From a virus, in the IMG/VR virus record IMGVR_UViG_3300025151_000234, positions 1 to 27,151 of that record: 27,151 nucleotides of DNA. One strand, given 5' to 3'. This document shows positions 2,398 through 7,302 of the stretch, one piece after another. A program made the translations under genes and the position numbers. The first letter of the stretch is position 1, and the number at the start of each line of letters is the position of its first letter. The notes beneath the pieces are model-generated. The model was given only the letters and a program-made list of their open reading frames with translations. It was not told the origin of the DNA and searched no databases.

Positions 2398-2408
2398 GTA
2401 GGATTGCT

Positions 2409-2450
2409 AGGCACACATCAAGGCACAACAAGGCACATCATTAAGGCACA
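2409..2450 (+). repeat. Four short direct repeats of AGGCACA
   Basis: AGGCACA occurs at 2409-2415, 2421-2427, 2431-2437 and 2444-2450, with spacings of 12, 10 and 13 bases; three copies extend to AAGGCACA. They begin just after the nuclease stop codon and before the hairpin-rich region. Near-helical spacing could suit binding of a protein or act as RNA recognition units; no function is known. Confidence 0.6.
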
Positions 2451-2846
2451 CACATAGGACTATACACCGGCCCCAACAGAGGCAAATAAATTCTGGCTCC
2501 TTGACAATCCGTTAAACACGGTGCGAGATCTGGAGATGTATAGCGGTAAAGATACAAACACACGACAAACAGTATTAAAAGTATGTAGGCTCTGAGAAAA
2601 AGCAACCTACAAGTTATATAACTAAACTTAACTAGGTTATATGATTTCCGTGAGATTCGAGACGGTAGTGTATGGGGACAAAAGGCTCACTGGTTCCTAA
2701 TAGCACCCGAGTTTAAGATGGCGACAACATCACATGATGACATATTCTCCTGTATAGGAGAATTATGACTCCTCCATACATGATAACGGAGTAAATTTAA
2801 GTCGAGTAAATGAGTTGAGTGAAACGAAACGAATTGGCGAAGACTT

Positions 2847-2864
2847 AAAAGGTCCGAAGGACCT
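2847..2864 (-). terminator. Intrinsic terminator of the gp55-gp47-gp46 operon
   Basis: Read on the minus strand, the stop codon at 2869-2867 is followed within a few bases by AGGTCC TTC GGACCT and then a short T run (TTTT, counting the last stem base) before AAG. The 6-bp GC-rich stem with a T run fits a rho-independent terminator. On the plus strand the same hairpin lacks a good T run. Confidence 0.6.
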
Positions 2865-2866
2865 AA

Positions 2867-3658
2867 TTAATATGCTTTAATAGAATGTATGAAGCGATAT
2901 TTCTTTATTTCCGATAAATCTGGTTCATGTGTTAGTTTACCTAACGGTATCTTTCCTATAGCCAGTCTTTTATCTCCTAAAGAGTAAGGCAGTTTGCTAT
3001 GTATTTTTGCTAGGAACCTGTTCAAGTTTAGCATATATTTTTTTCCAGCAAACAAATCTTCATCTAACCAGCATAATAAAAAAGATTTTATAAGGTGTGT
3101 AGGCTGAATTTGATCTTTTGGAATATCTATATCACCATCATTAAAGATAGCCATTATGTGTTTCCCCACATGAGGGTAGCCCATGTATAACCAATCCTTT
3201 TTCATATCTGGAGTAAACAAATCATAATCCTCATCTAAAAGTTCCTCACCAGGATCATCTGTAAGTATAACAATTTTGGGTTTATTACTTCTGCTTAAAT
3301 CTTCTAAGTGGTGTATTGTGTCATTTAACTTTACTAAAACATCATAAAGTTTCTGGCTGGGGTATTTTTCTTCCATCAGTTTATAATGCATACTTGCAAA
3401 AACATCGTGCAAATAATTTAAATCTCTGGAAGTTAAATCTATATCAGGCTTTAAATTTTTGAGTTCCTGAATGGTATTTTCTAAAACTTGATTTACATCT
3501 TGTACAGTTTCGCCAAAACCGTAGCAACTACTATTACTTAATACTGGAAAATTATGTTTGTTAAGACGTTGCCATATTGTTTTAGCAACACGGTTATCAA
3601 ATAGTTTATAAGTTAAGGTGTATTCTGCATTTTCACCTAAATTGACATCAACCAACAT
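2867..3658 (-). CDS. Conserved-looking protein of unknown function downstream of gp46
   Basis: A 263-residue soluble protein that I do not recognise. It begins MLVDVNLGENAEYTLTYKLF and contains helical segments (VLENTIQELKNLKP, LYDVLVKLNDTIHHLEDL), an acidic stretch (DDPGEELLDEDYDLFTPDM, about 136-154), a WLYMGYPHVGKHIMAIFNDG segment, and a basic C-terminal part (LNRFLAKIHSKLPYSLGDKRLAIGKIPLGKL). No nucleotide-binding, zinc or membrane motif is visible. Its ATG at 3658 lies inside the last codons of gp46 (ATGTTGGTTGA, 11-base overlap), so the two are translationally coupled. It is the last gene of the operon before the terminator. By position it may act with the gp46/gp47 nuclease or with late transcription, but this is inference. 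Confidence 0.75.
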   Translation of the reverse strand: MLVDVNLGENAEYTLTYKLFDNRVAKTIWQRLNKHNFPVLSNSSCYGFGETVQDVNQVLENTIQELKNLKPDIDLTSRDLNYLHDVFASMHYKLMEEKYPSQKLYDVLVKLNDTIHHLEDLSRSNKPKIVILTDDPGEELLDEDYDLFTPDMKKDWLYMGYPHVGKHIMAIFNDGDIDIPKDQIQPTHLIKSFLLCWLDEDLFAGKKYMLNLNRFLAKIHSKLPYSLGDKRLAIGKIPLGKLTHEPDLSEIKKYRFIHSIKAY

Positions 3659-5414
3659 ATTCAGTATCTGTGTTATAACTTGTAAATCCGCCTTCTTTTA
3701 CAACGGTTAATACATTGTTTACACGACCTATTAGTTCTTCTTTGTGCGATATCAACATGATGTTTTTACCCTGTTCACGATGCATTTTTTTCAGTACTGC
3801 AAGTGCATTTTCCACACCCATACTGTCCATGCCACTGTCTACAAGTTCATCAATACACATTAGGTTCATTGGTCTGTTTAGACTTTCATATATGTCTCTG
3901 AAACTCCAACTTAAACCAAGTATAAGTCTGTTACGTTCTCCTCGGCTTAAATTATCAAAGTCTAAATCTCTGCCATATTCAGTAATCTCTACACCTAAGT
4001 CGTTACTAAATTTAACGTCATGGGGCAGGCCAAGTTTTTCTAAATAATAACTAAGTCTGTGATTAAGATATGCAATATTTTGATCAATAATTTTCTTTCT
4101 GATAAAACTGTCTTTGCTTGTAAGCAACTTATATAAAAAGTCCTGATGCTCTTGTAAATGTGTTAATTCATTCATTGTATCAAAACTAATTTCCTGTAAA
4201 CCTGTAGTTTTAAGACCTTCTATTTGTTCTATATAAGGATTTTCCTCTTCTGCTTTTTCTTGCAGTTGATTATGCATAGTGTCTAAATTATGTTTATGCT
4301 GTAAAGCATCTTCCATTCTGCTATATTCTGTATGAGGAGTTTCTGGTATTTCTCCTAATTCATCGATAGCACCACACGTTTCTAATAATTGTAATTCAAG
4401 ATCATCATAATATTCTTTTTCTGTTACAATGTCGTCCTCTAAATCTGCAGTATATTTTTCGTGTGTATCTAAATGAGCAGTAGGTTGCTCACATGCTGGG
4501 CAAACACCTGCTTTTGCACTTACTAAATTACTTTGTAATTCTTCTAATTTTGATTTACTGCGATTTGCACTATTTGTAAGACGTTTTTGGTCTGCTTCTA
4601 AACTGCTCTTTTGTGCAACCTGTTCTTTTATTACTGCCAATACCTTATGGTTATCTAATTCTTGATTGATATCAATTTTTTCCATTTCCACTATTGCAGT
4701 ACCTAGTTCATTTAGTTTGGCTTCTTTATTACTTTCCCATGCTCTACTACGGCTTTCTATCTCTTTAATGTTTTTTTCTATACGTTGGTTACTGGTATCT
4801 ATAGCATTTATTGTTATTTCTTCCTCTTTAATAGCATCTCTAGTAACCTTTTGTCTTTCCTTAAGTATTTCTGCTTTTTGCGAAAGTTCTGTAATACCCA
4901 ACAACTGCTCAATCATATCCTTTTGATCGTTGTTTTTCATTGCAAGGAAAGGTTCAGTATATGTATTAAGTGCAATCAAATGCTTAAACATATTGTGCGG
5001 AAAGCCAATTATTTTTTCTATTTCTTTTTGTGTTTCTCTGCTATCGCCTTGCTGTTCTTGATCTATTGCATCTTCTCCGTCCACATATAGTTTTAAAATA
5101 TTAGGACGTCTGCCTCTTTCTATTCTATACTCTTTGCCTTTTATCTCAAACTCCACAGTAGTAATCATACCTTTACCATTTGTTTTGTTTATAAGATTAT
5201 CTTTTCTGATATTAGTTAAGGCATCTCCATAAAGAGCATAACTGAGTGCATTTATTATAGTAGTTTTACCTGTACCATTTCTGCTACCATCTCCTCCCAT
5301 GTCTAAATTGTGTCCTAACACAAGAGTGAGTTGGCAATTATCAAAGTTTACTGCCTGTGTGTTGTTCCCAACACTCATAAAGTTTTTTGCTGATACGTTT
5401 TTAATTTTTAGCAT
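3648..5414 (-). CDS. 46: Recombination endonuclease subunit gp46 (Rad50/SbcC-like ATPase)
   Basis: A 588-residue SMC/Rad50-type ATPase. The P-loop is at residues 43-52 (GSRNGTGKTT, within GHNLDMGGDGSRNGTGKTT). Two coiled-coil arms flank a zinc hook, C305-P-A-C308. The ABC signature NLSRGERNRLILGLSWSF lies near residues 486-503, the Walker B motif LMCIDELVDSGMD near 514-526, and the switch histidine in MLISHKEEL. Length is close to T4 gp46 (about 560). With gp47 it forms the Mre11/Rad50-like complex that resects DNA ends to 3' single strands for recombination-dependent replication and degrades host DNA. Its ATG overlaps the gp47 stop as TAATG. All expected motifs are intact. Confidence 0.95.
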   Translation of the reverse strand: MLKIKNVSAKNFMSVGNNTQAVNFDNCQLTLVLGHNLDMGGDGSRNGTGKTTIINALSYALYGDALTNIRKDNLINKTNGKGMITTVEFEIKGKEYRIERGRRPNILKLYVDGEDAIDQEQQGDSRETQKEIEKIIGFPHNMFKHLIALNTYTEPFLAMKNNDQKDMIEQLLGITELSQKAEILKERQKVTRDAIKEEEITINAIDTSNQRIEKNIKEIESRSRAWESNKEAKLNELGTAIVEMEKIDINQELDNHKVLAVIKEQVAQKSSLEADQKRLTNSANRSKSKLEELQSNLVSAKAGVCPACEQPTAHLDTHEKYTADLEDDIVTEKEYYDDLELQLLETCGAIDELGEIPETPHTEYSRMEDALQHKHNLDTMHNQLQEKAEEENPYIEQIEGLKTTGLQEISFDTMNELTHLQEHQDFLYKLLTSKDSFIRKKIIDQNIAYLNHRLSYYLEKLGLPHDVKFSNDLGVEITEYGRDLDFDNLSRGERNRLILGLSWSFRDIYESLNRPMNLMCIDELVDSGMDSMGVENALAVLKKMHREQGKNIMLISHKEELIGRVNNVLTVVKEGGFTSYNTDTEYVG

Positions 5415-6427
5415 TATATTTCTAAACTATTATAAATGTCAACTAATTTATTTTTGTCAACTGTTTGACTTTCTATTGTGTCTAATTGTGCAAGTACAAT
5501 TTGATCTACACTTTCAAATTGTATCTCACCGCCTTCAAATTCTTCTTCCTCTTTTATTGGAATAAGTTGAAGTTCTCTTACATTGTATTGCTCTGCAAAT
5601 TTTTCTCTAATAAAACTTGCCTCTTCGTAACTGATACTGACATCTAATTTTACTCTTGCATAAGTGTACTCGTCCAATAAATTTTGATGATCATCTAATA
5701 ATTGTTTTAGTGTAAAGACTTTGTATTTTGGACATTGTTCCCAATTAACATACAGAGGCTCTTCTCCCCATGTTAAGAACATGGCACCTCTTTCATTATC
5801 ATCTACGTCTGCGTAATTGTGTGGGAAAGCATTACCTATATAATGTATATTATTTTTAAACTGTCTTTTATGAAAATGTCCACTAAACACATACTCTGGA
5901 CCACTTAACATTTTATCGTTAATACCACCATGGTCTGGCATTTCTACCATAGCATTCATTTTAAAGTATGGTAACTCAAAATGTCCAAACATGTATTTGC
6001 ATTCCATTTTTTGTACTTGTTTAAATTCATCACCAACAAGCCAAGGAATAATTGCTACATCATCTTGTAAAAAATGCTCATCAACCATTACAAAATTAGA
6101 CAAGTCTCTGGCATACTCTATGCTATTAAGTTCTCTTTTGTCTTTATAATATAAATCATGATTACCTGTTATAAAATAAACAGTTTCAAATGCATCATTT
6201 AATTTTTTAAAGTCCACAATAGAGGCATTCATAGTTGCTACACTAATACTTGCTCTGTGATGATTCCAGTCACCAAGAAATATACAGGTTTCTGCATTTC
6301 TGGCTTTTGCTTCTGCAATAAACCAGTCTATATACCTGTGGCAATCTTGTAAATGTAAACGGCTGTTTTGCTTTAATCCGTAGTGTATGTCAGTAAAACA
6401 AGCCGCTGTTTTAAACAGTTGGCTCAT
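5414..6427 (-). CDS. 47: Recombination endonuclease subunit gp47 (Mre11/SbcD-like)
   Basis: A 337-residue calcineurin-like metallophosphoesterase. The metal-binding motifs are in the expected order: DIHYG at 13-17 (D13, H15), GDWNHH at 52-57 (D53), GNHD at 88-91 (N89, H90), a GHFE segment in KYMFGHFELPYF, and SGHFHKRQF carrying the last histidines. The C-terminal part is acidic (IPIKEEEEFEGGEIQFESVDQ) and probably includes the region that contacts gp46. Length matches T4 gp47 (about 339). It is the nuclease partner of gp46 and sits directly upstream of it with a one-base overlap; gp55 lies five bases upstream. The start MSQLFKTAACFTD is the only sensible one before motif I. Confidence 0.95.
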   Translation of the reverse strand: MSQLFKTAACFTDIHYGLKQNSRLHLQDCHRYIDWFIAEAKARNAETCIFLGDWNHHRASISVATMNASIVDFKKLNDAFETVYFITGNHDLYYKDKRELNSIEYARDLSNFVMVDEHFLQDDVAIIPWLVGDEFKQVQKMECKYMFGHFELPYFKMNAMVEMPDHGGINDKMLSGPEYVFSGHFHKRQFKNNIHYIGNAFPHNYADVDDNERGAMFLTWGEEPLYVNWEQCPKYKVFTLKQLLDDHQNLLDEYTYARVKLDVSISYEEASFIREKFAEQYNVRELQLIPIKEEEEFEGGEIQFESVDQIVLAQLDTIESQTVDKNKLVDIYNSLEI

Positions 6428-6432
6428 AAAAA

Positions 6433-7302
6433 TTAATCGTTAATATCAGTTGTTTGACTTTGTTCTGCGGCTTCTCTTAATTCACGCAGTTCATTTTCAT
6501 GTTGAATTTGTCTTCCATAACTTGGTAAATGCCCTTGCTCAATAAGAATATCATCTCTTATCATTTGGTTCCTTTTTTCCAAGTTAAGTACTCTTGTGAA
6601 ACTGTTATTAACGGCGGCTGTATAATAAGCAAAAGGGTTATCTGATTTTTGCTCATTAAACTGTAGTCCAATATAACTTAATTGTAGTAATGCTTGTCCA
6701 CGCATTTCATCTACATAAGTATATCCTCTCCAGTTACCTCTGTGACTATACCTTTCCACTAATTTTAAAAACATAGTGCCAAGTTTATTTGTGATTTTTC
6801 CATGTTCAGGATTAAAGTGTCCATTACTTAATCCTCCTTCCCAATGACTTCTTGCTACTTCCTTTAACTCATCACCAACGTATGCGTAATGTTTAAAAGG
6901 AGGAAAATTTACCTTTGCTTTTGTTTCTGCTTCATTCCTAGGATTCTTTTTTCTTCCTGGTTCTAATGGAATATGTTCCATAGTCATAACACGAAAAACT
7001 AAATCTTCTTTTGCTATGCTTTTAGGATCTACAGCAAACTCTTTCTGCTTGGGTTTATTTCTGTAATCTTTAGGATCATGTTCTGCCATTGCGGCCTGAT
7101 ATGCATCATATTGCATTTTTGCGGCTTTATTTTCTCTTGCGGCTTTAATACTGATTCTATTGACTTTTTTAACGTCTTCTAATATGATATCAAATGCACC
7201 ATATTTTTCATCTGCTAACCAGCAGTACGTCATTTTGCTTTTATGGATTTCTTTTAGAATATCTTTGTTATTAAGATAGTTTACTTTTTTAGGCTGTGCC
7301 AT
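6433..7302 (-). CDS. 55: Late-transcription sigma factor gp55, with long N-terminal extension
   Basis: A 289-residue protein whose C-terminal half matches the sigma-like core of T4 gp55: YSHRGNWRGYTYVDEMRGQALLQ, then LQFNEQKSDNPFAYYTAAVNNSFTRVLNLEKRNQMIRDD (about residues 190-260). This corresponds to the region 2-like segment that binds the RNA polymerase clamp and the late promoter -10 element. The first 180 or so residues (NKDILKEIHKSKMTYCWLADEKYG onward) have no counterpart in the 185-residue T4 protein. The C-terminus (REAAEQSQTTDIND) is polar, unlike the short hydrophobic and acidic clamp-binding tail of T4 gp55, so any sliding-clamp contact must differ. The start is backed by GAGGAG shortly upstream and by a sigma70 promoter about 40-70 bases upstream. 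It probably directs host polymerase to the GATAAATA elements in this window. Confidence 0.8.
   Translation of the reverse strand: MAQPKKVNYLNNKDILKEIHKSKMTYCWLADEKYGAFDIILEDVKKVNRISIKAARENKAAKMQYDAYQAAMAEHDPKDYRNKPKQKEFAVDPKSIAKEDLVFRVMTMEHIPLEPGRKKNPRNEAETKAKVNFPPFKHYAYVGDELKEVARSHWEGGLSNGHFNPEHGKITNKLGTMFLKLVERYSHRGNWRGYTYVDEMRGQALLQLSYIGLQFNEQKSDNPFAYYTAAVNNSFTRVLNLEKRNQMIRDDILIEQGHLPSYGRQIQHENELRELREAAEQSQTTDIND

Follow-up and report, generated by a model that had tools for sequence, protein, structure and literature searches.

A large pseudoknotted RNA with concerted twin words in aquatic phages carrying T4-like genes

Genetic organization of the locus

The window analysed in this study (the whole stretch of 27,151 nt of a 27-kb virus record) carries the genes of a phage with T4-like modules. 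A gp26-like baseplate gene (positions 882-1754) is followed by a plus-strand gene (1975-2397), whose 140-aa product was identified as a SegE-like GIY-YIG protein on the basis of a Pfam match (SegE_GIY-YIG, E 1e-33) and synteny; the domain match covers essentially all of this short protein. On the other side of the spacer 2398-2866 lies a converging gene (2867-3658, minus strand), placed by synteny, whose 263-aa product is not assigned to any family (no match in the PHROG search and nothing significant in Pfam) and whose relatives adjoin gp46 in other phages too. The minus strand then carries gp46 (3648-5414), gp47 (5414-6427) and a late sigma factor gene (6433-7302). Among isolates, gp46 is closest to that of Pseudomonas jumbo phage PA5oct and its copies, with 50% of amino acids identical, followed by those of Sinorhizobium phage Phosso and Agrobacterium phage Atu_ph07. 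The T4 late-promoter octamer TATAAATA does not occur in the window 1-27151 (0 occurrences versus 5.4 expected), although the late sigma factor gene is T4-like.

The initial annotation had described the spacer 2398-2866 as a gene-free, less AT-rich region rich in perfect stems. The only ORF inside it is a mechanical one (54 aa, minus strand), its GC content is 0.414 (0.337 for the window), and the two stems that had been singled out are exact, i.e. an 8-bp stem with a GTAT loop (2744-2751/2756-2763) and an 8-bp closing stem (2796-2803/2842-2849). The folding energy of the single sequence is not unusual on either the plus strand (z -1.47; 10 of 100 shuffles did as well) or the minus strand (z +0.33), and a list of stems alone would therefore have proved nothing.

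Between the SegE gene and the conserved part of the spacer, direct repeats (AAGGCACA) are present at 2409-2452 (plus strand). These tandem-like GGCACA repeats are found in the lineage of the window, while related repeats (AAGTCACA and ATGGCACA) precede the RNA in other lineages; both their sequence and their copy number differ among relatives.

Secondary structure of the RNA

Comparison with relatives delimited a conserved RNA of about 410 nt (approximately 2451-2863, plus strand). The alignments were made from sequence, that of a 57-sequence core without any reference to structure, and slid partners and shuffles served as the null. In the core, 83.5% of the pair cells were paired, versus 38-46% for the slid versions; 341 cells had changed on both sides, versus 117 in the shuffles, and the covariation score was 0.493, versus 0.181 for shuffled data. 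All 500 shuffles fell short of the observed value on every measure, and the true helices ranked at the top of an APC-corrected covariation analysis of 62 sequences. At the level of comparative sequence analysis, covariation across more than 50 divergent relatives thus establishes the helices described below, including two pseudoknots. The "large structured RNA" of the initial annotation is borne out by these results, and neither an unalignable locus nor a lack of covariation, each of which had been named there as evidence against such an RNA, was found. The RNA is assigned to the plus strand, since its conserved G-U pairs (e.g. 2677-2695, present in 46 of the 57 sequences) would be A-C mismatches on the other strand.

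The 5' domain (2460-2576) is composed of helices P1 (2460-2466/2537-2543), P2 (2477-2480/2492-2495), P3 (2497-2500/2532-2535), P4 (2509-2512/2518-2521) and P5 (2551-2555/2572-2576), which are 77-100% paired in 42 close relatives, with compensating changes. Hairpin P6 (2585-2610) closes the most conserved stretch of the molecule, GGCTCTGAGAAAAAGCAACC; the sequence within P6 is nearly invariant, and the hairpin is 94% paired, with double-sided changes in four of its five pairs. The loop of the following hairpin, P7 (2614-2644), takes part in pseudoknot helix h (2627-2631 with 2713-2717), which displays the highest covariation of the RNA (z up to 17.4). This helix is 95% paired in close relatives, and in distant phages 6-8 bp are kept despite complete sequence turnover.

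The strands of three helices interleave in the central part (b, d, c, b', c', d'): helix b, a pseudoknot formed by 2650-2654 and 2686-2690 (97.5% of cells paired, up to five pair types per pair), helix d (2667-2670/2704-2707; 80% paired) and helix c (2675-2679/2693-2697; 93% paired), the latter two with double-sided changes. Downstream of these, hairpin e (2744-2763), which includes the stem with the GTAT loop, is kept with altered sequence in relatives, and the 8-bp closing stem, g, is paired in 97% of cells by several pair types. The molecule ends with a terminal hairpin (GGTCC GAA GGACC, 2851-2863), 100% paired with changes in the 42 relatives. On the minus strand this hairpin is followed by TTTT, and it may also terminate the converging operon.

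Search among known RNA families

The initial annotation had recognized no tRNA, group I or II intron core, RNase P RNA or tmRNA in the spacer, and had left the choice between GOLLD, ROOL, an IMES RNA and a new class. The cmscan search against Rfam 15 that it had proposed gave no match in the window at gathering thresholds (the models include GOLLD, ROOL, IMES, HEARO, introns, RNase P and tmRNA), and ARAGORN found no tRNA or tmRNA; of the suggested identities, only the new class survives. Among 48 related loci representing all lineages, including class II (see below) and isolate loci, cmscan detected nothing apart from one unrelated tRNA, and permissive thresholds yielded chance-level matches or none. 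A group I or II intron was rejected, as the RNA is intergenic in all contexts examined and cmscan gave no match to a catalytic core. In the open-access literature we found descriptions of cyanophage cis elements and of an antisense RNA, and no comparable RNA. These results support the view that the RNA represents a previously uncatalogued class, matching no Rfam family.

Distribution of the RNA among phages and bacteria

Related loci were fetched using the SegE protein (80 viral loci) and the converging gene (6 loci). In the first pass, the spacer was conserved at 73-94% identity in more than 25 of them, always in place. At least 120 viral contigs contained a match to the 20 nt of highest conservation (GGCWMTGRGAAHAAGCAACC), and iterated nhmmer over all loci gave a match in 164 of them (160 at 45 bits or more). 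The RNA is present in well over a hundred aquatic phage contigs. The longest contig with a relative of the RNA comprises 267,783 bases, which shows that at least some of the carriers are jumbo phages; the carriers as a whole are aquatic phages with T4-like genes. Across 131 distinct contexts, homologs are located between the gp47-gp46 side and the gp26 side, and each long contig in which the pattern matched contains a single copy.

BLAST searches of phage isolates with four class I queries (class I being the RNA of the window and its homologs) and class II sequences revealed nothing relevant. PA5oct, Phosso, Atu_ph07 and Vibrio phage 2.275.O carry no homolog detectable by motif, nhmmer or covariance model at the homologous place. 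An unannotated spacer at the corresponding place in PA5oct (L219:10860-11260) folds far better than its shuffles (z -7.5) and does not match the covariance model; it may hold another RNA. In Phosso, a Holliday junction resolvase gene near gp46 adjoins an unannotated spacer of 1 kb (L220:10411-11424), which is stem-rich by eye and has no Rfam match.

When the 20-nt motif was used to search 85,000 bacterial and archaeal genomes, 15 matches were obtained, which is approximately the chance expectation. Most were rejected as chance matches, and the covariance model (R1) supported only two. The copy of Alsobacter soli (region L217:2561-4730; 42.6 bits), in which helices b, c and h and hairpin e are readable and no clear twin word (see below) was found, is situated directly downstream of a large serine recombinase gene; a yifB/comM-like gene fragment ends nearby (position 6066 of L217), which suggests an integrated element. 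The second copy (52 bits) is carried by an alphaproteobacterial MAG contig (L214), with phage-like genes downstream. A further 684 alphaproteobacterial genomes gave a single extra match, which was weak. Given so few bacterial copies, we consider this essentially a phage RNA.

Other RNA classes at the same place

By nhmmer, the class I RNA is missing from 43 of the 80 SegE loci. At least 13 of these carry a different structured RNA in the same place behind SegE (class II, with the core GACGNAGGNTGGGAAAGGTCAGAGCC; e.g. L018:4420-4860), and four to six carry a third, divergent type. A scan with the class II core identified at least 120 contigs, with more than 100 further loci (L281-L359 and others). 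Class II has no Rfam match and possesses covarying helices of its own, one of them long-range. No examined contig carries both classes, and a 5' domain is common to some members of each (L040 versus L039). The third type (L051:4580-4940, also L044, L053 and L055, with L012 and L048 cut off) scores 21.6 bits with model R1.

Twin words

The strongest column pairs of the class I alignment include, besides the true helices, pairs 46-47 nt apart that vary with the same, and not the complementary, letter (e.g. 2729-2776 and 2734-2780, both z 10.0). They reflect two same-sense copies of one word, located on either side of hairpin e: copy 1, ACATGATGAC (2732-2741), and copy 2, ACATGATAAC (2778-2787), both on the plus strand. 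The word differs between phages and is alike within one RNA. Both copies read TCATGAT, TCGTGAT, ACTTGAT, TCGAGAT, ATATGAT or AGATAATG in some phages, and GAATAAT, GGATGAT, TGGTAAT, AAATGAA, ACTACAAG or GCCACAT in others. Neither these twin words nor the pseudoknots had been noticed in the initial annotation.

The copies of an RNA's own pair share on average 7.28 bases, versus 5.50 for pairs drawn from phages with different words, and the observed sum (444) exceeds the maximum of 20,000 permutations (389). The word was found by identity, so that its positions 1-7 necessarily agree; positions +9 and +10, which played no part in its definition, agree in 85% and 82% of loci, where 35-37% would be expected. 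The signature is also present in class II (100 of 111 loci, most of the others being cut by contig ends), where same-letter pairs are again among the strongest and 82 of 82 loci are identical at one pair of columns; in two class II loci (L331 and L380) the copies differ at position 7. At least two RNA classes share both the place and the twin-word module. Third-type loci show the words TTCTC-GGTGAAG and CATCT-GGTGAAG.

Some differences between the copies are fixed. At position +8, copy 1 has G where copy 2 mostly has A. The bases at -3 to -1 are CUC ahead of copy 1 and UCU ahead of copy 2 in each of the 74 class II loci and in many class I loci, a rule from which the window's own subfamily departs. 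These differences are mainly transitions, and both versions would pair, through G-U wobble, with one strand carrying U and GGG; this is the chief argument for a nucleic-acid partner.

In many loci the second copy, inspected by hand, reads AUG...stop. The twin modules were considered as mini-ORFs and rejected, as the distance from AUG to word can be 13 or 14 nt and class II has no start codon there. Ribosome hopping of the kind known from T4 gene 60 was likewise rejected, there being no open frame upstream.

In a search for the partner of the word by exact matches and duplex energies, the RNA and its flanks showed no complement of the word beyond that found for the words of other phages, and in seven partial or near-complete phage contigs (71-268 kb) the word is not enriched and its complement is not repeated beyond the locus. 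If the partner is a nucleic acid, it lies in the host or in parts of the phage genome outside the stretches examined.

Interpretation of the twin words

The explanation that we favour, tentatively and at not quite even chances, is that of an independent large pseudoknotted noncoding RNA acting in trans, both word copies of which are read by one nucleic-acid partner. Such an RNA would be discretely transcribed, and its folded scaffold would hold out two copies of one recognition word, each base-pairing with the same partner outside the RNA. This partner would be a DNA site or another RNA, the latter from the host or from phage sequence beyond the stretches examined. Whenever a lineage switched its partner, both copies would have to change together, giving rise to concerted variation. 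In a bolder formulation, which we regard as improbable, at least two RNA classes share a recognition element that is quickly re-programmed in evolution: the twin words would be two identical guides, used by the RNA alone or together with SegE in a ribonucleoprotein, and retargeted by changing in step.

Alternatively, the two copies might change in concert because a single protein recognizes both, or because of a requirement at the DNA level. In the former case, the RNA would be a scaffold for a phage or host protein, a dimer of which binds two identical modules (RUGRC-linker-word), with the word tracking the specificity of the protein. The repeated unit does exceed the word, as the RUGRC ahead of each copy also tends to match between copies (z 6-7.7), and the search for a nucleic-acid partner in the RNA, its flanks and the seven contigs gave none. 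However, close relatives differ by several adjacent word bases at once (ACATGAT to TCGTGAT), and such fast, near-arbitrary changes suit base pairing better than protein recognition, as do the mainly transitional differences between the copies. A protein scaffold is considered doubtful.

Less readily still, the words might be explained as repeats serving template switching, recombination or cleavage, or as a trace of cleavage or splicing. Direct repeats of 7-10 bp do flank a hairpin at a spacing of 46 to 72 nt, and the neighbouring gene encodes a homing-type nuclease in the phages and a serine recombinase in Alsobacter. This DNA-level or processing role is unlikely: the spacing and the hairpin sequence between the words vary widely, no contig was seen with a deleted or rearranged hairpin, the intron families are unmatched, and no internal guide complementary to the words was found, the own words of an RNA pairing with it no better than those of other phages.

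Relationship between the RNA and the SegE gene

SegE is the nearest upstream neighbour in most relatives (104 of the 131 distinct loci, a count partly biased by the SegE-anchored search, although loci fetched with the motif show SegE too), and in most loci the RNA starts just past the SegE stop codon. This arrangement would fit a cis element, which might serve the SegE transcript as its 3' UTR, as a terminator or for stability, or might terminate both of the converging operons, a role for which the terminal hairpin with its run of T's on the minus strand also appears suitable. The RNA is, however, found with other genes and no SegE upstream (L109, L110, L155, L177 and L197) and, in L128, L130 and L186, with SegE in reverse orientation, i.e. 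it is neither always downstream of SegE nor always co-oriented with it, and thus is not simply the SegE 3' UTR. Moreover, a 400-nt pseudoknotted fold with a nearly invariant P6 far exceeds the needs of a terminator, which makes a cis role quite improbable.

In the lineage of the window, SegE and the RNA (1975-2866) have the same flanking genes as in most related phages but the opposite orientation between them, and the two can thus move as one cassette. It is very unlikely that they form one ribonucleoprotein, in which the RNA would be the guide or specificity subunit of the GIY-YIG protein and the twin words the guides: the frequent adjacency, the joint inversion, a protein consisting of little more than its domain and the second RNA class behind SegE are in line with it, but part of the SegE counts is biased, as noted above, SegE genes without the RNA exist as well as RNAs without SegE, and two identical guides have no obvious use in cutting one site.

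Comparison with known systems

The RNA described here belongs to an abundant superfamily of aquatic viruses that has no Rfam entry and for which BLAST searches found no isolate. The concerted twin words are an unusual comparative signal, as same-sense copies match each other and nothing inside the molecule.

Self-splicing introns with homing endonuclease genes resemble this locus in the proximity of a structured RNA to a gene of a homing-type endonuclease. In contrast to them, the RNA of the window is located outside genes, has no exons and does not match the intron models; moreover, its helix b is nested inside helix h, whereas P3 and P7 of introns cross. Omega RNA/HEARO, associated with IscB and TnpB nucleases, is likewise a structured RNA beside a small nuclease gene, but the RNA of the window has no Rfam match, its neighbour is of the GIY-YIG and not the HNH/RuvC type, it also occurs without the nuclease, and a guide boundary at the element end was not seen.

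Several structured or regulatory RNAs have been described in marine T4-like phages (PMC2864571, PMC9602691). Of these, manA, wcaG and PhotoRC-II are short 5'-UTR elements that act in cis, and CfrI is antisense to psbA. The RNA of the window differs from all of these in being located downstream of genes, in its length of several hundred nucleotides and in the lack of an Rfam match.

Being conserved, covarying, noncoding and phage-borne, the RNA is of the general kind of the large structured phage noncoding RNAs. It is like GOLLD and ROOL in its length of several hundred nucleotides, its intricate pseudoknotted fold, its occurrence mainly in phage and metagenome DNA, and its standing as an orphan RNA, and differs from them in size and core, with no cmscan match in the window or in the 48 related loci. 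We know of no twin words in GOLLD or ROOL; in the present RNA, they reduce the question of its function to a concrete task, namely finding the strand by which the word is read.
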